64,000 nucleotides of DNA from a virus, in IMG/VR virus record IMGVR_UViG_3300025141_008848, positions 1-64,000 of that record; one strand, given 5' to 3'. A program made the translations under genes and the position numbers. The notes beneath the pieces are model-generated. The model did no database searches. It was not told the DNA's origin and worked only from the letters and a program-made list of their open reading frames with translations. Position 1 is the first letter of the stretch, and the number at the start of each line of letters is the position of its first letter. Positions 1,235 through 41,021 of this stretch are shown one piece after another.

Positions 1235-2350
1235 TTAAAGTTGGGTATCCACAAGTTCTCTCGGTGAATCATAATCACCAAACTTTCTTCGGAAAACTTC
1301 ACCAGTATCAGGATTTCTTTCGTATATATACTTCTCCTCCGACTCAACAGAAGACAAATTTTTAATAACCTGTGTATTTATCCATTCGTAGGTTTTTTTC
1401 ATCCCGTCAATTAAGGGTTGGGACACCTTCCACCCAAGATTTTCAAAATAAAGAGAATTATCAGAATTTCTACCATTAACCCCTACTGGACATTTATGCC
1501 CATACTTTTTAACAAAGGAATCACCATCAATATTGTATATATCTAAATCTCTACCAGAAACCTCAATCGCCATTTTCGCAAAATCGTTTATAGAAATCAT
1601 TTCCTCGGAACCTATATTTACAGGGCCTATAAAGTCAGAGTTCATTAAACGTCTTACAGCCTCAATACACTCATCAATATATAAAAAGGAACGAGTTTGA
1701 TTTCCAGGTCCCCAAACCTCAATTGATTCTCCTTCATTAGCCACAGCTACTTTCCGACACATGGCTGCTGGTGCTTTTTCTTTACCACCATCCCATGTTC
1801 CTTCTGGGCCAAAAATATTATGGAATCTCGCTACCCTAACATCTAAACCATAATTTCTATTAAATGATAGGTACAATCGTTCACTAAATAACTTTTCCCA
1901 ACCATACTCTGAATCAGGTTCTGCTGGATACGCAGAATCCTCCGTACAGTTTGGGTTATCAGGGTCTAATTGGTTATGTTCCGGATACATACATGCAGAT
2001 GAAGAATAAAATACTTTTTTAACTTTCTTTACGACACATTCATGGACAACATTTAAGTTAACCAAAGCTGAGTTATGCATAACATCAGCATCATGGTCTC
2101 CCGTAAAAATATATCCTGCACCACCCATATCCGCCGCAAATTGATAGAGTTCGTCAACGTCAGAATCTATAACTTTGGACACTAATTCCGGATTCCTTAA
2201 ATCACCGATAATAAATTTATCAGCTTCTGTTGGAGAAAACTCCGGATTCTTAAGGTCAACACCAATAACGTAAAAACCTTCTTTTTTTAATCTTTTTACC
2301 ATATGACTTCCTATAAAGCCACCTGCACCTAATATTACTGCTTTTTTCAT
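1235..2350 (-). CDS. GDP-mannose 3,5-epimerase-like SDR
   Basis: A 371-residue extended SDR. After the GAGGFIG loop (residues 8-14) it carries a block very like plant GDP-mannose 3,5-epimerase: SSSACMYPE (116-124) with Cys120, YGWEK (149-153), RFHNIFGP, GTWDGGKEKAPAAMCRK (184-200) and QTRSFLYIDECIEAV. In the plant enzyme a Cys and a Lys in the equivalent segments are the acid/base residues, so Cys120 and Lys192 are the likely counterparts here. The family reaction makes GDP-L-galactose and GDP-L-gulose from GDP-mannose. About 45 residues at the C-terminus (ERNPDTGEVFRRKFGDY) extend past the core. The stop is 4 bases from the downstream SDR, and its ATG overlaps the stop of nadE by 4 bases, implying coupled translation. 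The substrate is inferred from motif likeness. Confidence 0.85.
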   Translation of the reverse strand: MKKAVILGAGGFIGSHMVKRLKKEGFYVIGVDLKNPEFSPTEADKFIIGDLRNPELVSKVIDSDVDELYQFAADMGGAGYIFTGDHDADVMHNSALVNLNVVHECVVKKVKKVFYSSSACMYPEHNQLDPDNPNCTEDSAYPAEPDSEYGWEKLFSERLYLSFNRNYGLDVRVARFHNIFGPEGTWDGGKEKAPAAMCRKVAVANEGESIEVWGPGNQTRSFLYIDECIEAVRRLMNSDFIGPVNIGSEEMISINDFAKMAIEVSGRDLDIYNIDGDSFVKKYGHKCPVGVNGRNSDNSLYFENLGWKVSQPLIDGMKKTYEWINTQVIKNLSSVESEEKYIYERNPDTGEVFRRKFGDYDSPRELVDTQL

Positions 2351-3123
2351 ATATTATTATTTTTTATAAATACCGGGATAGGTATCATCTTATGTTTATT
2401 TTGTTTATTAAATTTATTGTATATTTTTAAGACTTCTTCTTGTCTATCTGTACAATTGTATCCCTCTCGCACATATGCGTATTCAGATTCAGTATAATTC
2501 ATTGCCCACTCAAGTTCATCATAAGTAGCTCCTAATTGGTCTTCATCTGTCCTATCATCCCCCCAAAGACCATCGGTAGGGCTAGCTTGGATTATATCAT
2601 CTATTATTCCTAGATTAATTGCAAGTTCTCTAACTTCTGATTTCATTAAGTCTGCAATTGGACTTATATCTACACCACCATCTCCATATTTTGTAAAAAA
2701 CCCAACCCCAAAATCTTCTACTTTATTTCCTGTGCCTACGACTAAACCATCATTTGATTGTGCTATTTGATATAAGGTTGTCATTCTTAGTCGTGCTCTG
2801 GAGTTAGCCAAGGCAAGATTATTTTCGTTATCAGCAAAAATCATCTTAAACGTATCATATACATGAGATAAATTTACTTCCATAGCTGTAACATTATTAT
2901 ACTTACCCTTTAACCATTTAATGTGTTTATTAGCTCTATCTAATTCTGATGGATTTTGGTGGATTGGCATAGAAACCACAATAGTTTTTATTCCTGTCTC
3001 AGCACATAATGTAGAGACTAGTGCAGAATCCACACCACCAGACACCCCAACTACAAAGGTATTAATACTACTATTTTGTGAGTAGTCCCTTAACCAGTTT
3101 ATAATTAGTTGTTGTGTTTTCAT
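2347..3123 (-). CDS. nadE: ammonia-dependent NAD+ synthase
   Basis: A 258-residue protein that converts deamido-NAD to NAD with ATP and ammonia. The PP-loop GVSGGVDSA is at 27-34, and the deamido-NAD binding region TGNKVEDFGVGFFTKYGDGG at about 131-150 is followed by DISPIADL and the DGLWGDDRTDEDQLG loop, all as in bacterial NadE; there is no glutaminase domain. The length is normal for the short form. It is unusual in being embedded in sugar genes with a 4-base overlap with the GME-like gene and 1 base from the methyltransferase gene. The local job might be to keep NAD available for SDR and dehydrogenase steps, or to offset NAD-depleting host defences; both are inference. A sugar amidotransferase role was considered, but the KYGDGG signature favours true NadE. 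Confidence 0.9.
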   Translation of the reverse strand: MKTQQLIINWLRDYSQNSSINTFVVGVSGGVDSALVSTLCAETGIKTIVVSMPIHQNPSELDRANKHIKWLKGKYNNVTAMEVNLSHVYDTFKMIFADNENNLALANSRARLRMTTLYQIAQSNDGLVVGTGNKVEDFGVGFFTKYGDGGVDISPIADLMKSEVRELAINLGIIDDIIQASPTDGLWGDDRTDEDQLGATYDELEWAMNYTESEYAYVREGYNCTDRQEEVLKIYNKFNKQNKHKMIPIPVFIKNNNI

Positions 3124-7539: not shown

Positions 7540-10113
7540 TTAAGCTTCGAAGTTTACCTCCTGTAAGTCCTTAATGTTAATGAAGGTAACACCCCTATCA
7601 ACTAACTCTTTATTATTTTTTACAATCATATCGAAGAAATTCCAAGCCATTACAATGATGACTTCTGGTAAATTATCTATACAATATTCTTTACTCTTAA
7701 TTGGTATGTTCACACATGGAATGTATTTACCTACCTTCATTTCGTTGTCCTCAATTATATAATCAATATCATCACCAGTGATTCCGAAATAATTAAGAGC
7801 CGTTGTTGCCTTAGCAGGTGCAGCGTATCCCACGATAACACTATATTTATCTTTCAACTTACCAATGTTATTCGTAACATTAACCTTTAATTGGTTAACC
7901 TTCTTACTGAAGTTGGTATACGTTTCTAACTCTTCGACACCATCTTTCTTTTCAGCTGATAAGAACTTATTAACACTAGGCTCTACCTCAGCACCATGAT
8001 TCTTAACGAATACACGAATCGAACCACCATGAGTATCGATGTGCTCAACCTTATAAACTACATACCCTAACCTATCAAAGAAGTTATTAATTGAAGTTAC
8101 CGTCCAGTAGTTAACGTGTTCGTGGTAGATATTATCGAATGTTAAATCCTTCATAGTATCCATAAGATACTGCACTTCAACAATAAATGAACCATCACTA
8201 TTAAGAATGCTAAAAGCGTCACGTGTAATATCAACCAATACGTCAGAATGAGCAAACACATTAGAAGCGGTAACTAAACTAGCTTTACCGTATGTCTTAT
8301 CAATTTCAGCGATAGCTCTACTATCGAAATAACCGTTAATAGTATTGATACCATTATCATTTGCCATCTTAGCGATATTCTTAGCTGGTTCAACACCAAG
8401 TACTTTAATGCCACTTTCTTGTAATGGTTTAAGTGCTATACCATCATTACTACCTATATCAATTACTAATGTTTTATCATTTAACCCAAACTCTGTTATG
8501 TACTGGGTAGAAACATCCTCAAAGTGCTTTCTAAATGATTTTGCTGTTGAGGAGACGTATAGATAGTTATCAAACATTTTTTGTGGTGGTACACTAACTG
8601 ATAATTGACAGTTATGACATTTTGGGCAATAATTCATCTCTAAAGGATACACCTCAGAATTTTCGTCAACTGACCCTTTTAAATTATTAGCTAAAGGTGA
8701 GTCACCTAAAGAAATAACCCTATGTAAATCTGTCGAACCACAACCTCGACAATCAACCCTATAACTCTCAAGTAACCTAACTCTAGTTTGCTCATCAACT
8801 AGTACATAAGGCATTGTATGTGTTGTACCATAATTTTCATGTTCTCTTTCACCCCTAACAAGATTTAAGAAAATAGAATCTTTAGTGAAAACCATTGTGT
8901 GTGCAACATTTGGTTTGATTATTGCAATATCACCTTCATTTATTACCCTAGTTTCTATTGGTGCATTTGGTATTGATAGGTCTTGAATAACACTAATGTA
9001 TTGACCTTTAATTAATAGACATTTTTGTTCTTGGATTGGGTGATAGTGATTAGCTCTAACTGTACCTTTTTTAGATTCTATATACCCTATTAAGTTAATA
9101 GGTTCCGTAAGTTCATAATTACTTATTTTACCCCTATCATCAATATATTCTTTTCCACCTTGTACAGTATATTCTAATTCCGGCCTGATATCTCTTTTAG
9201 ACCAATTCGATATCATTTCACCTAAACTTTCCTCTAAACTGTACCTGAATTCAAACCCAGTTCCCATCAGTTTTTTATTTGATATGGTATATCCCAGATT
9301 AGGTATTTCATCATCAGTTTCTATAAGAGTAAGATTAGGGTTAATTTTTTTACATAGTTCAGCTACTTCCTTAACAGTCATATTATCTTTAGATAAATGG
9401 AAAGTTTCTCTCTTAATCTCTTCATTTTCCGTCATAAACTTCATGCATCTAACAACATCCATCAAAGGAACTAAACTTTTTAATTGTATGCCACCAGAAA
9501 ATAAACTTATAGTACCATTCTGAGACGCTATTTTAGAAAACAGATTTGGCATAATACCCATCCTCATAGTATCTGTAGAATAACCATAAACAGAGGCTAG
9601 TCTTAATACAACATAATTAAGGTTAGAATTATTTAAATCTTTTTCTGACTCTACTTTTCCTTGTGCATAGGTTAATACTGGACAAGTTGGTTCTGATTCT
9701 GGAATATTAGTTTTTGTTTCATTAAAACCTTCATACACAACATGTGTTGATGGAAATATAATTTTAGCATTTTTATTAGCATATTTAATAACATTTTGGG
9801 TACCTACTATACCTATCTGTTTTACTTGGTTATCGTGCTCCTTATTAGATTGTGTTTTAACATAGGCAACATCCGTAATACCTGCTAAATGGATTATAGT
9901 ATCTGCATCCCCAAGTTCTCTACTTAAAACTACCTCATCTAATATAGATGATTGAATAAAGTTTATCCCCCAATCCCTCAGTTGCTTAACTCTTTCAGAT
10001 ATAAATCTGTTATCAATTACTGTTATTTCTTTAAATCTAGCTTCCCCAGAATAAAGTTTACATAGTTCGGTTCCGATATACCCCAAACCACCTGTTATTA
10101 CTATTTTTTTCAT
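7540..10113 (-). CDS. three-domain fusion: SDR epimerase - cupin - sugar C-methyltransferase
   Basis: An 857-residue single frame joining three enzymes that are usually separate. Residues 1 to about 310 are an extended SDR (TGGLGYIG, STHVVYEG, YAQGK as Y-xxx-K). About 315-435 is a cupin of the WxcM / RmlC-like type (RANHYHPIQEQKCLLIKG, NEGDIAIIKPNVAHTM). About 440-857 is an NDP-hexose C-methyltransferase of the TylC3 kind: a zinc-binding head (CRGCGS, CPKCHNC), motif I VIDIGSNDG, NIYHEHVNYW, and the C-terminal nucleotide-like domain (GYAAPAKATTALNYFG). Together they could isomerise, C-methylate and reduce one 4-keto-6-deoxysugar. No stop or frame change is visible at the junctions. GC counted by hand on a few 60-base lines is somewhat higher in the C-terminal third (30-43%) than upstream (27-33%). 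Confidence 0.88.
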   Translation of the reverse strand: MKKIVITGGLGYIGTELCKLYSGEARFKEITVIDNRFISERVKQLRDWGINFIQSSILDEVVLSRELGDADTIIHLAGITDVAYVKTQSNKEHDNQVKQIGIVGTQNVIKYANKNAKIIFPSTHVVYEGFNETKTNIPESEPTCPVLTYAQGKVESEKDLNNSNLNYVVLRLASVYGYSTDTMRMGIMPNLFSKIASQNGTISLFSGGIQLKSLVPLMDVVRCMKFMTENEEIKRETFHLSKDNMTVKEVAELCKKINPNLTLIETDDEIPNLGYTISNKKLMGTGFEFRYSLEESLGEMISNWSKRDIRPELEYTVQGGKEYIDDRGKISNYELTEPINLIGYIESKKGTVRANHYHPIQEQKCLLIKGQYISVIQDLSIPNAPIETRVINEGDIAIIKPNVAHTMVFTKDSIFLNLVRGEREHENYGTTHTMPYVLVDEQTRVRLLESYRVDCRGCGSTDLHRVISLGDSPLANNLKGSVDENSEVYPLEMNYCPKCHNCQLSVSVPPQKMFDNYLYVSSTAKSFRKHFEDVSTQYITEFGLNDKTLVIDIGSNDGIALKPLQESGIKVLGVEPAKNIAKMANDNGINTINGYFDSRAIAEIDKTYGKASLVTASNVFAHSDVLVDITRDAFSILNSDGSFIVEVQYLMDTMKDLTFDNIYHEHVNYWTVTSINNFFDRLGYVVYKVEHIDTHGGSIRVFVKNHGAEVEPSVNKFLSAEKKDGVEELETYTNFSKKVNQLKVNVTNNIGKLKDKYSVIVGYAAPAKATTALNYFGITGDDIDYIIEDNEMKVGKYIPCVNIPIKSKEYCIDNLPEVIIVMAWNFFDMIVKNNKELVDRGVTFINIKDLQEVNFEA

Positions 10114-10172: not shown

Positions 10173-10970
10173 TTAAGTATACAAAAAGTTTTTAGCTTTT
10201 ATATCTTTAGGAAAGAAAAAATCATCCTGAGGCTTATTGTAATTTAACCAATTATGTGGGGCAATTACTATTTCCTTTGGGCTCAACCAAGCTGACCACC
10301 ACGAAAATGAGGAGGCTGAAATAATATTATATCTAGAGTTGTAAAGACATTTAAAATCTGACATTATACTATTGGAAACTACAGGAATATCTGGAAATAT
10401 CGAAGATGAAAATTCCACGTCATCCGTGACTATAAGAAATTTTACATCACTTTTAACTTCCTTAACCATTTTAAAAGCCTTTAGATAATATTCTTTAGGT
10501 ATTAACCAATTATTAGTTCCGAATAGATTATCACCACCCCTAATATGGACATAACAATATTCATCCACAGGATACTTGGCAATTACTGATTTTGTAACCT
10601 CATCCATTTCCAACTCAAACCAAGATTTAACCATATCCTCATAACCCTCAAAGTATTTTTCTGTTTGGAAATACCCACGTAAGTGAGTAAAATCTGACAC
10701 ATCAAATACAGATGGGTTAAAGGCCTGGTCGGGACTTTCTTGAAATATCTTTTGTATGGGTCCATCCACCACACCTAAGTCAATGGTGGGGAAACATTCT
10801 TTTAGATTTCCCGCGTAGGGAAGGTTAAAATTACACCCTTTTTTATGAGCAATTAATCTACATAATGCATATTGGAACATATGATTACCTAATGATATAT
10901 TATTCTGTTGTGCGACACCAAATTTCTTTAATTGAGATTCGGATAATTGGTTAACGTGTATTGAAATCAT
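10173..10970 (-). CDS. GT11-like glycosyltransferase (divergent paralogue)
   Basis: A 265-residue paralogue of the GT11 gene at 5121. The N-terminal motif is displaced by about 20 residues and reads NISLGNHMFQYALCRL. The donor motif is HIRGGDNL instead of HxRRxD, so the second Arg is replaced by Gly. The C-terminal motif SASSFSWWSAWL is intact. Loss of the RR pair suggests a different donor or acceptor from classical fucosyltransferases. It stands between two AT-rich gaps (59 and 58 bases), unlike most neighbours, so it may have its own promoter, although I see no clear one. Confidence 0.8.
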   Translation of the reverse strand: MISIHVNQLSESQLKKFGVAQQNNISLGNHMFQYALCRLIAHKKGCNFNLPYAGNLKECFPTIDLGVVDGPIQKIFQESPDQAFNPSVFDVSDFTHLRGYFQTEKYFEGYEDMVKSWFELEMDEVTKSVIAKYPVDEYCYVHIRGGDNLFGTNNWLIPKEYYLKAFKMVKEVKSDVKFLIVTDDVEFSSSIFPDIPVVSNSIMSDFKCLYNSRYNIISASSFSWWSAWLSPKEIVIAPHNWLNYNKPQDDFFFPKDIKAKNFLYT

Positions 10971-11028: not shown

Positions 11029-11934
11029 CTATTTAATTAAATAAGTAAATTTGGTTTTTATTAAGTCAAGAATTTCTTGAGGGTAAGTATAGGAATCTAA
11101 ATCTACCTCTTTTAAACCATCAAAATAGAATTCTTGTATACTATCCCTATACGAATTATTCGTCCTCCCAAATAAATCTACACCACTCTGGATTTTATTC
11201 TCTATATTCGATGTGATGTGGGTATTATTAAATTCTTGATGAGCATACGAGTCAATTTTTGTTTTAATTCTATCCACACCACCCATAAATGATAAGTGCC
11301 ATCCACCTTTCTCTATTTTATCAAAATCAACTCTTTTATTTTTAAGGTGTGTTAGGGAGACCTCTTTAGTGTCTTTATATCTAACTACATAATTTCCATA
11401 CCAGTTAGTGTGTGCCATGGTATTTATGTGGTAATAAAAACAATCTTGTAGAACACAGTAGTTATATAATTTTTTTTCTTTTATATCTTTCACCACTTCT
11501 GGTTTTGGGATTTCATCTAAATCAGAAAGCATAATCATATCATCATCATCACAATCCATCAAACCAAACTGGATAAATTCTTTTTGTAGGTAGTCCCTAC
11601 AGAATGTGGGGTATTGTTTGAGCTGACTCTCAGACTCTTCTATATCATATCGTTCCGATATTTTATTATACATTAAACTATGTTTATCACCACCAACTTT
11701 TTTACCCATATCTAATATATTAGACGGGAAGTCATTCACAACATGTATAATCTTATCATTATATTTACTAAATAATTCTTTATTCTCTTGGTAGTATAAT
11801 TTTTTTTCTTTATCGGAATGAGTTCTAGTGGCCTCACTTATTACAAAGTAATCAACGTGGTCGTACAACAACTCTAATCGTATCTCTAGTAAGTCCAATT
11901 CATTAAAGAATTGAAAACAATCGTAAATTTTCAT
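11029..11934 (-). CDS. GT17-like glycosyltransferase
   Basis: A 301-residue protein whose opening MKIYDCFQFFNELDLLEIRL, the FVISEATRTHSD segment, the acid-rich MIMLSDLDEIPK (a D-x-D type metal site) and GGWHLSFMGG followed by KIDSYAHQEF are the order seen in GT17, the family of beta-1,4-N-acetylglucosaminyltransferase III and many bacterial and viral relatives. Length is normal. It lies 5 bases from the downstream end of the GT11-like gene at 11940. The donor sugar in bacterial and phage members is not established, so only the family is claimed. Confidence 0.82.
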   Translation of the reverse strand: MKIYDCFQFFNELDLLEIRLELLYDHVDYFVISEATRTHSDKEKKLYYQENKELFSKYNDKIIHVVNDFPSNILDMGKKVGGDKHSLMYNKISERYDIEESESQLKQYPTFCRDYLQKEFIQFGLMDCDDDDMIMLSDLDEIPKPEVVKDIKEKKLYNYCVLQDCFYYHINTMAHTNWYGNYVVRYKDTKEVSLTHLKNKRVDFDKIEKGGWHLSFMGGVDRIKTKIDSYAHQEFNNTHITSNIENKIQSGVDLFGRTNNSYRDSIQEFYFDGLKEVDLDSYTYPQEILDLIKTKFTYLIK

Positions 11935-13513: not shown

Positions 13514-14190
13514 TTATTTCCTATAGTGTTTACTTCGTCAATATTGTTCCATTTAGAACTCTTACCATGAAACCCAAACGGTGTAATACCTTCTATCTCA
13601 GGTATATATGATTCATGTGAAAAATACTTAGCCACATCTAGAGGTGCGTACCTCATACCATTTTCTTCAAATATGTGTCTATAATTTACACATATATAAC
13701 CATCTTCATTGTAAAACCCATGAAAGGACTTCCACTCTAACCCTAATTTATTCGGTAGGTCCACCAATTTTTTAGACCTCAAAGAAAATCCACCATTACC
13801 AACCCTAAAAAGATTACCCTTGGTATCTCTATAAGAGAAGTTATCATTTGGTAAAGACCAAGGAGCACCAATATAATCGTACTCTAAAAATTCGTTACGC
13901 CAAGATGAAGGATTAACTACATAACCATCGGGTTGTATAACTAAAACAAATTCAGTCTCAAAGTACCCACCCAACTTGTATATTATATTATAACTATATT
14001 CATCTATACTGTTCATTTTATCAATATACTCAAACTTAATGTTTGGTGGGAGGTTATTTGGTTTTTCATGTGACACTAATTTGACTGCACCAAAATTAAT
14101 GCCCCGACAACTATATTCTAAAGCTTTTATCGACTCATCTAATTTAATAGAACTTAATATTACTAATGTTACATTTTTTAAATTAAGCAT
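13501..14190 (-). CDS. DUF5672-like putative glycosyltransferase
   Basis: A 229-residue protein matching the pattern I recall for DUF5672: LVIQPDGYVVNPSSW, YDYIGAPW, VGNGGFSLRSKKL, an EDGYICVNYR block and final HGK. These are GT-A-like sugar transferases seen in bacterial and viral glycan loci. The P-D-G segment replaces the usual D-x-D. The gene overlaps the upstream fusion gene by 8 bases and the downstream methyltransferase by 13. The donor is unknown; the assignment rests on motif order only. Confidence 0.7.
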   Translation of the reverse strand: MLNLKNVTLVILSSIKLDESIKALEYSCRGINFGAVKLVSHEKPNNLPPNIKFEYIDKMNSIDEYSYNIIYKLGGYFETEFVLVIQPDGYVVNPSSWRNEFLEYDYIGAPWSLPNDNFSYRDTKGNLFRVGNGGFSLRSKKLVDLPNKLGLEWKSFHGFYNEDGYICVNYRHIFEENGMRYAPLDVAKYFSHESYIPEIEGITPFGFHGKSSKWNNIDEVNTIGNNWLK

Positions 14191-15589
14191 ATTTTAATTT
14201 TAACATATTAAATTCTGTATCTTTTAATGATTGTGGTATTGTGTCCGTCAATCGTTCCCCCCAAGTCCTGTTAACTACAGTTATTTCCTCCAGTATAGAA
14301 GGTTCACCATGTAAATCAAACATCCGTTTATAGTAATCTACATCCATCAACCAATTTAACCCCTCATCGAAGAAAAGTAAATTTTTATTTTTAATGGTCA
14401 TACCACTTGGACATCCCATAGTATTGTTACCCGTCCATATCATATTATTCCAGTGTGGGTTATAAAGTCGATAGTAAGATTTACCATCATTACTGTGATA
14501 AAATTTAGACATCAACCAACTAATATTAGGTTGCGAAATAAGAAAATCTGACTGTATTTTTAACGAATTTTTATCATATAAAAAATCATCCTGGAATAAA
14601 ACTTTAATCCATTTTCCAGAACATAACCTCATAGCGTTATTGATATTTGGAGATATAATACCCCTACCTCTTGAATTCCTAAAATATTTTATATTTAATT
14701 TATCCGACCACTGAGTATAAACATCCTTTATAGTGTCATCCTCACTATGGTCAGATAATACCACCTCAAAGTCCTTAAATGTCTGATTACTCAAAATAGT
14801 TAAACTATGCTCCAAAAACTCCCTACCCCTACCACCGTAACCATAAGTTGGAATCGCAATAGAAAAAAATGGTTTATTTAGTGTGGTGACTAATTTACTA
14901 ATATTCATGGATAAATTTTTGGGTACGTGTGGTGGGGAATAACTTTTTTTAACTTTTTTAGTTTCTGAAGCTAATTCGTAAATAGTTTTTGTTTCGGTAC
15001 CAACATTATACAAACCACTTAAATTATCCATTACCATAGAAATTATAATTTTAGATATGTTAGGACAGTAGTCAAAATTTCCCACCTGGTCAATCCAAGC
15101 ATTATCATAAGGAAATGGGGTTGGTTTATGAGTACATCTACACAAAAGATAATTTTTAGAACTTAACTGAACTAAACCGTCACCTAACAATTTTGTGTAA
15201 CCATACCAATTATTACAATGAACTGGTACAGTATTTTCTGTAGCTTCAGAATCAGAATTAGAGTAAAGATAGTCGGTAGAAATGTGCACCAGTTTAACAT
15301 TCCAGTTATTACAAAAATCTATTAAGTTGGATACCCCCACGTAGTTAACGTCCCAATGAACATCTCTATTTTTATTGTAGGTGTCGGTATTAGCGATACA
15401 ATTAACTATTACATCATATTTACAATGTTGTATCGCACCAAACTCTACATTAGTTAGTAGGTGGTAAGTACCCAAGTCGGTAATATCAAAACCATCACTA
15501 TTTCTAGAAATACAATCCCATTGGGTTTGCTTAACTATCTCTGAACCCAATAACCCATCACCTAATACTAAAACTCTTAATTTTTCCAT
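14183..15589 (-). CDS. fusion: RmlD-like SDR reductase - GT2 glycosyltransferase
   Basis: A 468-residue frame joining two activities. Residues 1 to about 230 look like a dTDP-4-dehydrorhamnose reductase relative: VLGDGLLGSEIV, NCIANTDTYN, VHISTDYLYS and WYGYTKLLGD as Y-xxx-K. From about residue 240, SIAIPTYGYGGRGREFLEHS, DFEVVLSDHSEDDT and KWIKVLFQDDFLYD are the GT2 GT-A fold with its metal-binding acidic pair. One chain could make the deoxysugar and then transfer it. No stop or frame slip at the junction (around 14870-14900). It overlaps the DUF5672-like gene by 8 bases and the RfbH-like gene by 13. Confidence 0.82.
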   Translation of the reverse strand: MEKLRVLVLGDGLLGSEIVKQTQWDCISRNSDGFDITDLGTYHLLTNVEFGAIQHCKYDVIVNCIANTDTYNKNRDVHWDVNYVGVSNLIDFCNNWNVKLVHISTDYLYSNSDSEATENTVPVHCNNWYGYTKLLGDGLVQLSSKNYLLCRCTHKPTPFPYDNAWIDQVGNFDYCPNISKIIISMVMDNLSGLYNVGTETKTIYELASETKKVKKSYSPPHVPKNLSMNISKLVTTLNKPFFSIAIPTYGYGGRGREFLEHSLTILSNQTFKDFEVVLSDHSEDDTIKDVYTQWSDKLNIKYFRNSRGRGIISPNINNAMRLCSGKWIKVLFQDDFLYDKNSLKIQSDFLISQPNISWLMSKFYHSNDGKSYYRLYNPHWNNMIWTGNNTMGCPSGMTIKNKNLLFFDEGLNWLMDVDYYKRMFDLHGEPSILEEITVVNRTWGERLTDTIPQSLKDTEFNMLKLKYA

Positions 15590-16878
15590 TTATTAACGAA
15601 TATACTTTCTATATAATCAAACACTTCATTTGTATAATGTGGTGCAGCACCAACAAAAAATACTTTATCTAAAACCTTATTTGCGTTAGGATAATCTCCT
15701 AACTCCCCCAAATGACTATAACCTGGATGCATTAGTATATTACCAGCAAAATAATTCCTAGTCTGAATTTTATTCTCTTCTAAAAAAGACACTAACCGAC
15801 CCTTTAATTTTTTATCTTTACAAATAAAGGGGGTACCAAACCAACAAGTGTCAGCTTTTGGTAGCATAGAAACTCCTTTGATTCCAGACACATACTTTAG
15901 AAAAATAGACTCAATAGTATTTTTACTACGTTTTCTATTTGTATCTATCTCATCAAATTTCTTTAATTGTACTAACCCAATGGACCCTTGTAAGTCCATA
16001 GGTTTTAAATTGTACCCCATATTGGTAAAAACATACTTATGGTCTATTATCCCATCATATGTGTCTAACCACGTATCAAACCTTTTACCACACGTACCAC
16101 AAGATAGTAGGTTAGCAGAACCAACACAATAACAATCTCTACCCCACCAAGCAAAACTAGTAAATAATTTTTTTAATGGGGCTATGTTAGTACAAACAGC
16201 ACCACCTTCACCAGTAGATATGTGATGAGCTGGATAAAAGGAAGAAGTCCAAGCTTCATAGTACTCACTTAAATGTTTACCGTCCCATTTAGAACCAATA
16301 CTATCACAACTATCACCTATTAATTTTATATCATGTTTTTTACATAATTCACTTAAAAAATCCATGTCAGGTACATTACCTAATACCGGAGATACAAATA
16401 TAGCCTTAGTTCTAGAAGTTATTTTTTCCTCTATTTTAGTGACATCAAAGTTCAACGTATCATATTCTATATCTACAAATACTGGAGTTAAATTATTTTG
16501 TACTATAACAGAGATTGTCGTTGGAAACCCAACAGGTGAAACAATAACCTCATCACCATCTCCCCAACCAAAATACTTCTTAAGAGCTGACATTAGAACT
16601 AAATTAGCTGAACTACCTGAGTTTACCATTTGGACAAACTCGGCACCAAATAACTTACCAAACTTACGTTCAAATTTATGGACATTTTCTCCAGCAACAA
16701 CCCACTTACCTTCTATAAAAGTTTTTATGGCTGCCATAATCTCTTCTTCATCCCAGTAAGGTCCAGAATACAACACTTGGCTTTTACCTGGAACAAATGC
16801 TTGGTTGTAAAGGTATTTTGGTTTGTTTTCTTTTAGATAACCTAAAAGTGATGGTAATATAGTATCTATTTCTTTCAT
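15577..16878 (-). CDS. RfbH-like nucleotide-sugar 3-dehydrase (DegT/DnrJ fold, PMP and Fe-S)
   Basis: A 433-residue member of the DegT/DnrJ/EryC1 fold. The position that normally holds the PLP-binding lysine reads SFYPAHHISTGEGG with His218-His219, the signature of 3-deoxysugar dehydrases (RfbH/E1, ColD) rather than aminotransferases. Four cysteines, C249-x-C251-x8-C260-x2-C263 before GKRF, correspond to the iron-sulfur cysteines of E1, and GYNLKPMDLQGSIGL matches the same family. RfbH removes the C3 hydroxyl of a CDP-4-keto-6-deoxyhexose, the step toward 3,6-dideoxyhexoses, and needs an E3-type reductase, which I do not see here. It overlaps the fusion gene downstream by 13 bases and its ATG overlaps the stop of the upstream GT2 gene by one base. 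Confidence 0.87.
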   Translation of the reverse strand: MKEIDTILPSLLGYLKENKPKYLYNQAFVPGKSQVLYSGPYWDEEEIMAAIKTFIEGKWVVAGENVHKFERKFGKLFGAEFVQMVNSGSSANLVLMSALKKYFGWGDGDEVIVSPVGFPTTISVIVQNNLTPVFVDIEYDTLNFDVTKIEEKITSRTKAIFVSPVLGNVPDMDFLSELCKKHDIKLIGDSCDSIGSKWDGKHLSEYYEAWTSSFYPAHHISTGEGGAVCTNIAPLKKLFTSFAWWGRDCYCVGSANLLSCGTCGKRFDTWLDTYDGIIDHKYVFTNMGYNLKPMDLQGSIGLVQLKKFDEIDTNRKRSKNTIESIFLKYVSGIKGVSMLPKADTCWFGTPFICKDKKLKGRLVSFLEENKIQTRNYFAGNILMHPGYSHLGELGDYPNANKVLDKVFFVGAAPHYTNEVFDYIESIFVNKWKN

Positions 16879-37592: not shown

Positions 37593-40500
37593 ATGGCAGA
37601 CGGTAATAAAATATTTGTTTCTCCAGGGGTATATACTTCAGAGAAAGATTTAACATTTGTAGCACAAAGTGTAGGTGTTACTACATTAGGTATAGTTGGA
37701 GAAACCTTAAAGGGTCCAGCTTTTGAACCAATATACATTCAATCATATGATGATTTTACAACTAGGTTTGGTGGGACTTCACCAATGACTTATGTGGATT
37801 CACAAATACCTAAATACGAATTAGGTTATATAGCTAAATCGTATTTAAGTCAATCAAACCAATTATTTGTAACAAGAGTATTGGGGATAAGTGGTTATGA
37901 CGCAGGACCATCATGGAGTGTTGTTACAATAGGAGAATTAGACGGCACTACTTTAACAGGTAGTACATCCGCAACCACCCAACTAACACTACCATTCTTT
38001 ATTCCTTTAACAGGGACAAATGGTACTATTGGGGCTAATTTTTCTGCGAATGATGCTTTACACGATGATTTCTTCAGACAACTTCCTGGAACCATAGCGA
38101 GTCATTTTTACAGTGAACCATATCAAACGGGTGATACAACAGCAGATAATGTGAACACTCCGTTTACAATGAATAATGGTACCACACTACCTAATTTACA
38201 AACATCTTTTATAAATTTCTTTAACGGAGGATACTCCCCAACAACAGTAGCATCAGGGTCAACTTGTTATTCAGGAGGACCAGTTTATTATTCTTCTACT
38301 ACTTTAGCTTCATGGAGTTGTCCACTAGTATACCAATACGGTTGTATACCTGAAGCAGTTGAATCAGCAGCAACAGGTACTACAATTGCAACATTTTCTG
38401 CTGAAACATCAGCACTAACAGTAACTAATGTACTATCCACTGAATGTACTGATTTTTCATCTTACAAAAATGATTCGTGGTATTATGGGTTATTCGATTA
38501 TGTAGATGCGGAATGTTGTACCGGTACAACATTTAGTGGGATATCTTATCAACTATGGTTAAGTGGTGGATGTAATAATGGTGGTGGTCTTAACGCTTGT
38601 ACAGGGGTTACAGGAACAACATCAGCTGGAACTGAAGTATATTCTGGTAATGTTATTGTAGATTTAATTACTTATACTGGTGTTGAACCGTACACCGACT
38701 ATGATGGTATGGTAGTATTAACATTAAGGTCTAGAGGACTTAGTACTAAGGCTTCGGGTGGACCGGTATATGCTTTAACAGCAGACACGGCGAGTTTTGA
38801 TTGTACTGGAGATTATGCTAAAGTATTAACAAATCCATTTGCTTCATTTGGGGTAAGTGCAACCACTACCGGTGGTGATGTATATACATTTAAAACTTCT
38901 ATGGCGAACACTTCACAAGATTATGTGTCAAGAGTGTTTGGTAGAAGTCCATTTGATAAAAAAGAATCTGAGGTTCCTTTATTTGTTGAGGAGACTTACC
39001 CAGCACTTTTAACTGATGGTTGGAAGAAAGGAAAAATTAGAGGGTTACAATGTTGTTTTAAATATTTACCTTCTGCACGAGACATAACTAATACAAATAC
39101 CATTGCGTGGTATATGAGAGAATGGACAACACCAGAAACACCATGGATTGTTTCCGAGTTACAAGGTACGGACATATTCAGATTATTTAAATTCATCTCA
39201 ATATCTGATGGTACAGCAGCAAATAGAGAAATTAAAGTTTCTATAATTAACTTATCATTCGAAAGAGGGGAGTTCGATGTAATCGTAAGAGATTTCTATG
39301 ATACAGACGCAAACCCACAAGTTTTAGAAAAATACACTAGATGTAGCTTAGACCCAACAAAAGTATCCTTTATAGGTAGAAAAATTGGTACTTCTACAGG
39401 GGAATTTGAATTAAAGTCTAAATATACAATGTTATATCTAGGTGAAGGATTGTTGGATGGTGTATTTAAGAATTCATTACCAGCTGGTTTTGAAGGATAT
39501 AGATTTAGAGGGTATGATTGCCCAGTTAATCCACGTATTATTTATAAAACAAAATATTATAAAGCAGGAGAAGTAGTGTATGACCCAGCTTTCGGTAGTG
39601 GTGTAGGTAATAACCAAACTATAAGTGGGGGTGATAAGATAAGTAAAGTTTATCTAGGAGTCTCAAATAGTATAGGAGCTGCTTATGACCCAGATTTCTT
39701 TGAATATAAAGGAAAACAAGTACCTAGTACATTATGTACAGCAGTGGAAGGTGGTGACTGGAATGTAATAACTCCTGGTTTCCACATGGATTCAGGAGCT
39801 ACAGTAGTGTTGGGTGGAACAGGAACTTATTTAGATTGGTCAGGAACTACATTAAATGGTAAACAAGTATTTGATTGTGGTGCCGGACAATTTAATCACG
39901 AACCAACTTTAAGTACTGAACCGTACAAACAACTTAGAAGTCGTAAATTTACAGTTGCTCCACATGGTGGGTTTGATGGTTGGGATATTTACAGAAAAAC
40001 AAGAACAAATTCTGACGATTATAGAATGGGACTAAGCGGATTCTTAGCAGGACAATGTGCTGGAACATCGGAATTCCCACAAGCAACTGGAAAGGGTACC
40101 TTTAAAAAATTAAGTAGTACAGAAGCTAACACAGATTATTTTGCTTATTTAAGAGGTATTAATACATTCAGTAATCCTGAAGCGGTAAATATTAATGTGT
40201 TTACCACACCTGGTATTGATTATGTGGATAATTTAGGTCTAGTAAATGAAACTATTGATATGGTAGAAACTGATAGAGCGGATTCATTATATGTAGTAAC
40301 GACACCAGACTACAATATGTTTGTTTCTAGTACGACAGACCCAGCTAACCAAATAACACCAGAAGAAGCGGTAGATAATATGGAAGACTCACTGATAGAC
40401 TCTAATTATACCGCTACGTATTATCCTTGGGTACAAGTTAGAGATACGGCAAATAACAAACAAATATTTATACCACCAACAGCGGAGGTAATGAGAAATA

Positions 40501-41021
40501 TAGCTTTAACCGATAATATTGCATTCCCATGGTTCGCATCTGCGGGATATACTAGAGGTATTGTGAACGCTATAAAAGCTAGAAAGAAACTTACATTAGA
40601 TGAAAGAGATACTTTATATGTGGGAAGACTTAATCCTATAGCAACATTTAGTGATGTCGGACCAATTATTTGGGGTAATAAAACACTACAAATTAGAGAA
40701 TCAGCACTAGATAGAATAAATGTTAGAAGATTATTATTACAAACTAGAAAGTTAATCTCAGCAGTATCAATTAGACTACTATTTGAACAAAATGATGATG
40801 TAGTAAGACAACAATTCTTAGACTTAGTTAACCCAATTCTAGACTCTATTAGAAGAGATAGAGGTTTAACTGACTTTAGAGTGGTACTTTCTAATGACCC
40901 AGAGGAGATAGATAGAAATGAAATGAATGGTAAAATCTACATAAAACCAACAAGAGCATTAGAATACATATTCGTTGAATTCTTGATAACACCTACTGGT
41001 GCATCTTTTGAGGATGTATAG
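37593..41021 (+). CDS. 18: tail sheath protein (gp18-like), very large
   Basis: A 1142-residue contractile sheath protein, against 659 in T4. The N-terminal VSPGVYTSEKDLTFV, LGIVGETLKGPAFEPIYI and FGGTSP, and the C-terminal core ARKKLTLDERDTLYVGRLNP, IWGNKTLQ, NVRRLLLQTRKLIS, YIFVEFLITP are the family hallmarks. The extra roughly 480 residues are insertions in the middle (about residues 110-460 and 640-830), Thr/Gly/Ser-rich with many cysteines (ECCTGTTFSG, GLNACTGVTG), probably surface-exposed domains on the sheath. It is preceded by a late promoter and followed by another, so it is probably its own transcript. Confidence 0.95.
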   Translation: MADGNKIFVSPGVYTSEKDLTFVAQSVGVTTLGIVGETLKGPAFEPIYIQSYDDFTTRFGGTSPMTYVDSQIPKYELGYIAKSYLSQSNQLFVTRVLGISGYDAGPSWSVVTIGELDGTTLTGSTSATTQLTLPFFIPLTGTNGTIGANFSANDALHDDFFRQLPGTIASHFYSEPYQTGDTTADNVNTPFTMNNGTTLPNLQTSFINFFNGGYSPTTVASGSTCYSGGPVYYSSTTLASWSCPLVYQYGCIPEAVESAATGTTIATFSAETSALTVTNVLSTECTDFSSYKNDSWYYGLFDYVDAECCTGTTFSGISYQLWLSGGCNNGGGLNACTGVTGTTSAGTEVYSGNVIVDLITYTGVEPYTDYDGMVVLTLRSRGLSTKASGGPVYALTADTASFDCTGDYAKVLTNPFASFGVSATTTGGDVYTFKTSMANTSQDYVSRVFGRSPFDKKESEVPLFVEETYPALLTDGWKKGKIRGLQCCFKYLPSARDITNTNTIAWYMREWTTPETPWIVSELQGTDIFRLFKFISISDGTAANREIKVSIINLSFERGEFDVIVRDFYDTDANPQVLEKYTRCSLDPTKVSFIGRKIGTSTGEFELKSKYTMLYLGEGLLDGVFKNSLPAGFEGYRFRGYDCPVNPRIIYKTKYYKAGEVVYDPAFGSGVGNNQTISGGDKISKVYLGVSNSIGAAYDPDFFEYKGKQVPSTLCTAVEGGDWNVITPGFHMDSGATVVLGGTGTYLDWSGTTLNGKQVFDCGAGQFNHEPTLSTEPYKQLRSRKFTVAPHGGFDGWDIYRKTRTNSDDYRMGLSGFLAGQCAGTSEFPQATGKGTFKKLSSTEANTDYFAYLRGINTFSNPEAVNINVFTTPGIDYVDNLGLVNETIDMVETDRADSLYVVTTPDYNMFVSSTTDPANQITPEEAVDNMEDSLIDSNYTATYYPWVQVRDTANNKQIFIPPTAEVMRNIALTDNIAFPWFASAGYTRGIVNAIKARKKLTLDERDTLYVGRLNPIATFSDVGPIIWGNKTLQIRESALDRINVRRLLLQTRKLISAVSIRLLFEQNDDVVRQQFLDLVNPILDSIRRDRGLTDFRVVLSNDPEEIDRNEMNGKIYIKPTRALEYIFVEFLITPTGASFEDV

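Follow-up and report, generated by a model that had tools for sequence, protein, structure and literature searches.

The gene at positions 7540-10113 (minus strand) of the analysed window, which covers positions 1-64000 of a virus record of 128,462 bases and carries phage DNA polymerase, helicase and tail sheath genes, encodes an 857 amino acid protein in which an SDR domain (approximately residues 1-305), a metal-binding cupin (306-450) and a sugar C3-methyltransferase (451-857) are joined. The diagnostic catalytic residues of all three domains are intact across an alignment of 113 such fusions, and the favoured reading, held tentatively, is that of a trifunctional nucleotide-sugar enzyme which builds a 3-C-methyl-branched sugar, with the SDR serving as C4 oxidase. 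Sugars with a C-methyl branch are most familiar as constituents of antibiotics and of some bacterial surface glycans. The SDR-cupin-C-methyltransferase arrangement is common, yet undescribed as far as the open-access literature goes, with no published description of the fusion found in open-access full text.

The frame opens with an ATG, contains no internal stops and is common to 113 sequences which cover all three domains, including 33 viral sequences (that of the window among them) and 80 genome contigs, nearly all from SAR11. A preliminary description of this DNA had placed SDR, cupin and C-methyltransferase, in that order, on one 857-residue frame, and this is confirmed by the open frame, Pfam, the cupin motifs and the fold matches. 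A frame error at a domain junction, which it had raised as a possible refutation, is ruled out by the 113 sequences reading through the three domains in one frame, while its claim that the architecture is singular falls with the same 113 sequences, the discovery of such homologues being the outcome it had named as counting against it. That an assembly or frame artefact joined neighbouring genes is so improbable as to be negligible: nothing within this sequence points to it, its one external support being the existence of natural split forms (L040, with an ATGA overlap), whereas the single frame recurs in many unrelated samples, in single-cell genomes and in a 642-kb phage genome. The linkers are nearly constant in length, with 21 residues between W304 and D325 (SDR-cupin) in 111/113 fusions and 16 residues between V439 and C455 (cupin-methyltransferase) in 112/113. 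This suggests a fixed spatial arrangement of the domains and favours a single origin of the fusion, and on the basis of these fixed linkers channelling of a 4-keto intermediate between the sites is plausible. An AlphaFold2 model of the whole protein, built on 34 relatives, gave a mean pLDDT of 88.3 and a pTM of 0.72.

The SDR domain (residues 1-305; positions 9199-10113, minus strand) matches the Pfam Epimerase family at residues 4-232 (1.5e-23) and incorporates the Rossmann GxxGxxG motif (residues 8, 11 and 14), an acidic D34 of the NAD type, S122/T123 and Y149-x3-K153. Both Y149 and K153 occur in 113/113 fusions. A single fusion has Thr in place of S122, and D34 and the glycines of the Rossmann motif are retained in all 112 fusions having those columns. 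The best matches of this domain are Cj1427 and 4-epimerases. Enzymes of the Cj1427 type oxidise C4 of an NDP-sugar, with the bound NADH recycled by 2-oxoglutarate. Among solved structures, the best relative by both sequence (E 9.7e-24) and fold (Foldseek TMt 0.86) is Cj1427 (6vo6), the GDP-heptose C4-dehydrogenase of Campylobacter jejuni, for which dehydrogenation of an NDP-sugar at C4 is proven (PMC10680097). The features of its class are found in the SDR, namely a whole-length sequence and fold match, the YxxxK motif and the NAD-type Asp, with D34 at the end of beta-2 aligning with the Asp of Cj1427, a position typical of NAD use. The two differ in that Cj1427 is free-standing, with the epimerases and reductases of its pathway being separate proteins (PMC10680097, PMC7949155). 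CapF, the other candidate model for this domain, was absent from the best 50 fold matches and from the 60 sequence matches listed, and a CapF subtype was thus not recovered. The product had previously been termed a deoxysugar, which finds little backing here, as the sugar used by the closest SDR relative of known structure is not a deoxysugar, and none of the window proteins scanned scored over a curated cut-off as a 4,6-dehydratase.

The cupin domain (residues 306-450; positions 8764-9198, minus strand) carries both cupin motifs, with putative metal ligands at H356-x-H358-x3-E362 and H405, all four of which are present in 113/113 fusions. Its sequence lies under the Pfam cut-offs, with weak profile matches to Cupin_2 (0.0012) and to PF14667 (0.0023), the C-terminal Zn cupin of CapF type, for which the score was 18.5 bits against a cut-off of 28.7. 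CapF was the best, but weak, match in a profile search (E 0.15) and supplied the four best PDB matches of a cupin-only AlphaFold model (pLDDT 80; Foldseek, 9.5e-9; moderate TM-score of ~0.6). The domain is therefore predicted to be a CapF-like metal cupin, an identity resting on these weak sequence scores and the TM-score of ~0.6. An RmlC- or WxcM-type cupin, named in the preliminary description among the domains to look for, is disfavoured, with both profile and fold searches pointing to CapF. It is rather improbable that the fusion serves co-expression or stability, with the cupin having a role other than epimerisation (such as that of a 3,4-ketoisomerase or of a structural module) and the three consecutive steps not being performed. 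The weak cupin scores and the FdtA ketoisomerase at rank 17 of the fold matches would accord with such a role, but CapF holds the top four ranks, the four putative ligands are invariant and the domain is well conserved (mean column identity of 77 % in alignment A2).

CapF (Cap5F) of Staphylococcus aureus (3st7, 4yrd) resembles the fusion in carrying a metal cupin behind an SDR in a single chain, in the HxHx3E motif and matching fold of that cupin, and in nucleotide-sugar chemistry around a 4-ketone. It differs in lacking a methyltransferase domain, in an SDR which is not the closest relative of that of the fusion, and in its use of NADPH, where the conserved Asp suggests NAD in the fusion. The SDR of CapF acts as final NADPH-dependent reductase, and its cupin as epimerase (PMC5393024).

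The third domain (residues 451-857; positions 7543-8763, minus strand) matches the methyltransferase MtmC (4rv9; E 1.4e-74 across 388 residues) and, by Foldseek, MtmC, KijD1 and TcaB9 (TMt 0.90-0.93). Over its whole length it has the make-up of these enzymes: a zinc-ribbon part (Methyltransf_13, residues 455-514, 6.6e-16; positions 8572-8751, minus strand), a SAM domain (Methyltransf_23, 541-688) and a C-terminal domain (Methyltransf_14, 694-845, 1.1e-41; positions 7579-8034, minus strand). Y519, H622, Y663, E665 and H666, present in 113/113 fusions, correspond by alignment position to Y76, H181, Y222, E224 and H225 of TcaB9, with the equivalence taken from the KijD1 and MtmC alignments and the residue list from the titles of TcaB9 mutant structures. 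The zinc-ribbon cysteines C455, C458, C496 and C499 are each found in 106-112 of the 113 fusions; one or more are missing in the viral fusions L021, L024 and L028, in which the catalytic residues are still there. The sugar 3-C-methyltransferases MtmC, TcaB9 and KijD1 thus share full length, fold, the Tyr/His/Tyr/Glu/His set and the zinc-ribbon cysteines with this domain, but are free-standing proteins of antibiotic pathways, whereas that of the fusion sits behind an SDR and a cupin. By analogy with this family, methylation would take place at C3.

Since all three families work around the C4 ketone of a nucleotide sugar, it is likely that the three sites share a single substrate, a 4-keto nucleotide sugar, which upholds the earlier suggestion that the chemistry of all domains centres on one such reactive compound. 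In the proposed sequence of reactions, the SDR, as a relative of Cj1427, would oxidise C4 of an NDP-sugar (possibly non-deoxy) in an NAD-dependent manner, the CapF-like metal cupin would epimerise the carbon beside the 4-ketone (C3, perhaps C5) and the TcaB9/MtmC-type domain would transfer the methyl group of SAM onto C3 of the enolate. The ketone would then be reduced, either by the same SDR returning the hydride or by another reductase, and the adjacent GT17-like transferase would use the product. The direction of the SDR reaction, the nucleotide and the sugar are provisional assignments. Counted in favour of C4 oxidation were the Cj1427 match, D34, the retained active sites, the fixed linkers, the lack of a shared dehydratase and the lone GT17 companion in SAR11; counted against it were that the direction of an SDR cannot be read from homology, that the CapF SDR reduces last, that the genomes are incomplete, that CDP-glucose dehydratase is commoner in carriers and that the cupin scores are weak. 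A more speculative and somewhat unlikely version is a redox-neutral, self-contained synthase, in which the SDR, with tightly held NAD, oxidises C4 and later returns the hydride, converting an NDP-sugar to its 3-C-methyl epimer with SAM alone consumed.

A sizeable, if minority, probability is given to a CapF-like order of reactions, in which the substrate is an NDP-4-keto-6-deoxysugar supplied by a separate 4,6-dehydratase. Epimerisation by the cupin would be followed by methylation at C3, with C4 reduction by the SDR as the last step. The C3-methyltransferases of known structure (MtmC, TcaB9, KijD1) use 4-keto-6-deoxysugars, and the cupin fold best matches CapF. In CapF, furthermore, the same SDR-then-cupin arrangement is associated with a reducing SDR and an epimerising cupin (PMC5393024). 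A CDP-glucose dehydratase was also found over the cut-off in 9/14 fusion-bearing and 4/16 other SAR11 genomes (Fisher p = 0.063), and a GDP-mannose dehydratase in 6/14 carriers (p = 0.46); neither value is decisive, and the substrate of the fusion could not be identified on the basis of dehydratase co-occurrence. Against the CapF-like order, the SDR is nearer to Cj1427 than to the SDR of CapF, and its conserved Asp lies at an NAD position rather than in an NADPH-type site. Moreover, the CDP-glucose dehydratase of two SAR11 genomes, G006 and G044, is encoded within a few kilobases of a separate stand-alone C-methyltransferase gene, and the dehydratase is thus perhaps unlinked to the fusion. No single 4,6-dehydratase is common to the carriers, with G112 lacking either type and G005 having neither over the cut-off (gmd just under), but as many SAR11 genomes are incomplete single-cell assemblies, the absent dehydratases may be gaps. 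The closeness to Cj1427, the NAD-type Asp and the carriers without a shared 4,6-dehydratase lead to a slight lean towards the SDR as maker of the ketone.

The fusion gene forms part of a phage minus-strand block (positions 379-22521) with many glycan genes, including those for SDRs, GT11, GT17 and GT2 glycosyltransferases, an RfbH-like enzyme and a nucleotide-sugar dehydrogenase. A GT11-type glycosyltransferase (positions 10173-10970, minus strand; PF01531, 6.7e-12) is encoded immediately upstream and a GT17-like glycosyltransferase (11029-11934, minus strand; PF04724, 4.5e-20) two genes upstream. No conserved NDP-sugar pathway emerged from a neighbour scan of 132 phage proteins. Elsewhere in the window, positions 14183-15589 encode another fusion (468 aa) of an N-terminal RmlD-like SDR and a C-terminal GT2 glycosyltransferase, and positions 15577-16878 an RfbH-like PLP enzyme (363.7 bits, under the 423-bit cut-off); enzymes of this kind serve in the 3-deoxygenation of NDP-4-keto-6-deoxysugars. 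An NAD synthase (NadE; 2347-3123) is likewise encoded within the glycan gene block, and the 1142 aa tail sheath protein (37593-41021) matches known sheath families only in its C-terminal part (~850-1139).

GT17 is the most frequent neighbour of the fusion in SAR11 and also adjoins it in several phages. The SAR11 copies are often flanked by tig-clpP-clpX-lon on one side and the nuo operon on the other, next to a GT17 gene in divergent orientation, and in many genomes this is the sole companion of the fusion between the housekeeping operons. A GT17 was found in 13/14 fusion-bearing and 4/16 other SAR11 genomes (p = 0.0002), with the carriers being interrelated and the non-carriers unmatched by clade; as kinship among the carriers is uncontrolled, this association is suggestive only. 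The GT17-like transferase is the probable user of the product of the fusion. At the SAR11 loci L056, L061 and L119, extra variable genes separate the fusion from the nuo operon, and the stretch from lon to nuo may be a place where glycan genes insert.

A scan of viral contigs yielded 45 loci, mostly full length, with 57-71 % identity, and the 642-kb huge phage LR756502 carries the fusion with 68 % identity. Among 84,980 species genomes, 380 relatives were detected, the best 80 of which make up the genome contigs considered here; almost all of these 80 belong to SAR11 (Pelagibacteraceae) and contain the complete fusion (56-60 % identity), and fused copies in other phyla may occur among the remaining relatives. 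The full-length fusion is present in 11/117 sampled SAR11 genomes, or about a tenth, with the centre genome counted in. In a sample of 399 Pseudomonadota genomes, the SAR11 centre genome was the only carrier. Sampling of the SAR86 order (1/101 genomes) and of the phylum of the Patescibacteria carrier (1/287) recovered only the genomes already known, and no plasmid record matched the SDR-cupin pair at 80 % query coverage. The SAR86 copy adjoins gshB, dnaG and rpoD, and is thus evidently chromosomal.

In the tree, the SAR11 sequences are united (SH-aLRT 100) and set apart from the viral ones, while the SAR86 and Patescibacteria copies fall among the viral sequences; as the root of the tree is uncertain, phages and SAR11 may have exchanged the gene in either direction. 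Several natural departures from the fusion identify the cupin/methyltransferase joint as a site of module exchange. For example, L040 is split at this joint, where the sequence ATGA contains both the stop and the next start, and its halves group with different relatives; L029 switches position between the two trees, and in L037, L039 and L042 the SDR-cupin half is followed by a very different methyltransferase. In L031 (7992-11366; 1124 aa) the fusion is extended by a fourth, C-terminal domain, FkbM-like by eye. At the SAR11 locus L130 (4368-6065), a cupin gene and a C-methyltransferase gene lie side by side, ordered as in the fusion and forming an unfused counterpart of its second and third domains, but the methyltransferase is distant from that of the fusion (33 % identity).

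The preliminary description had taken a GC difference at the C-terminal third of the gene as a sign of separately inherited parts. The difference itself is real, with a GC3 of 0.295 in the methyltransferase against 0.203 in the SDR and 0.159 in the cupin (~0.19 for the part ahead of the methyltransferase), although both halves lie within ~2 SD of the window genes examined (0.241 ± 0.031). The interpretation did not hold, as the step of +0.105 between the methyltransferase and the preceding part is not shared by the viral relatives (mean -0.019, SD 0.029). Being limited to this genome, it has no bearing on the age of the fusion, and a recent fusion in this genome was ruled out. The step may reflect a recent swap of the methyltransferase module in this phage lineage, such exchange being seen on the trees in other members. 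The fusion is old and shared, not a recent or singular event.

Carriage of the fusion by dozens of large aquatic phages, and by about one in ten of the SAR11 genomes sampled, is a pointer to a C-methyl branched sugar of uncharacterised kind both on bacteria of the ocean and in the glycan pathways of phages. It also provides a glycan gene which links large phages and SAR11. The fused and split forms together offer a ready protein for the study of 4-keto intermediate channelling. If the self-contained reaction proposed above is true, a redox-neutral branched-sugar synthase would be common to huge phages and SAR11.
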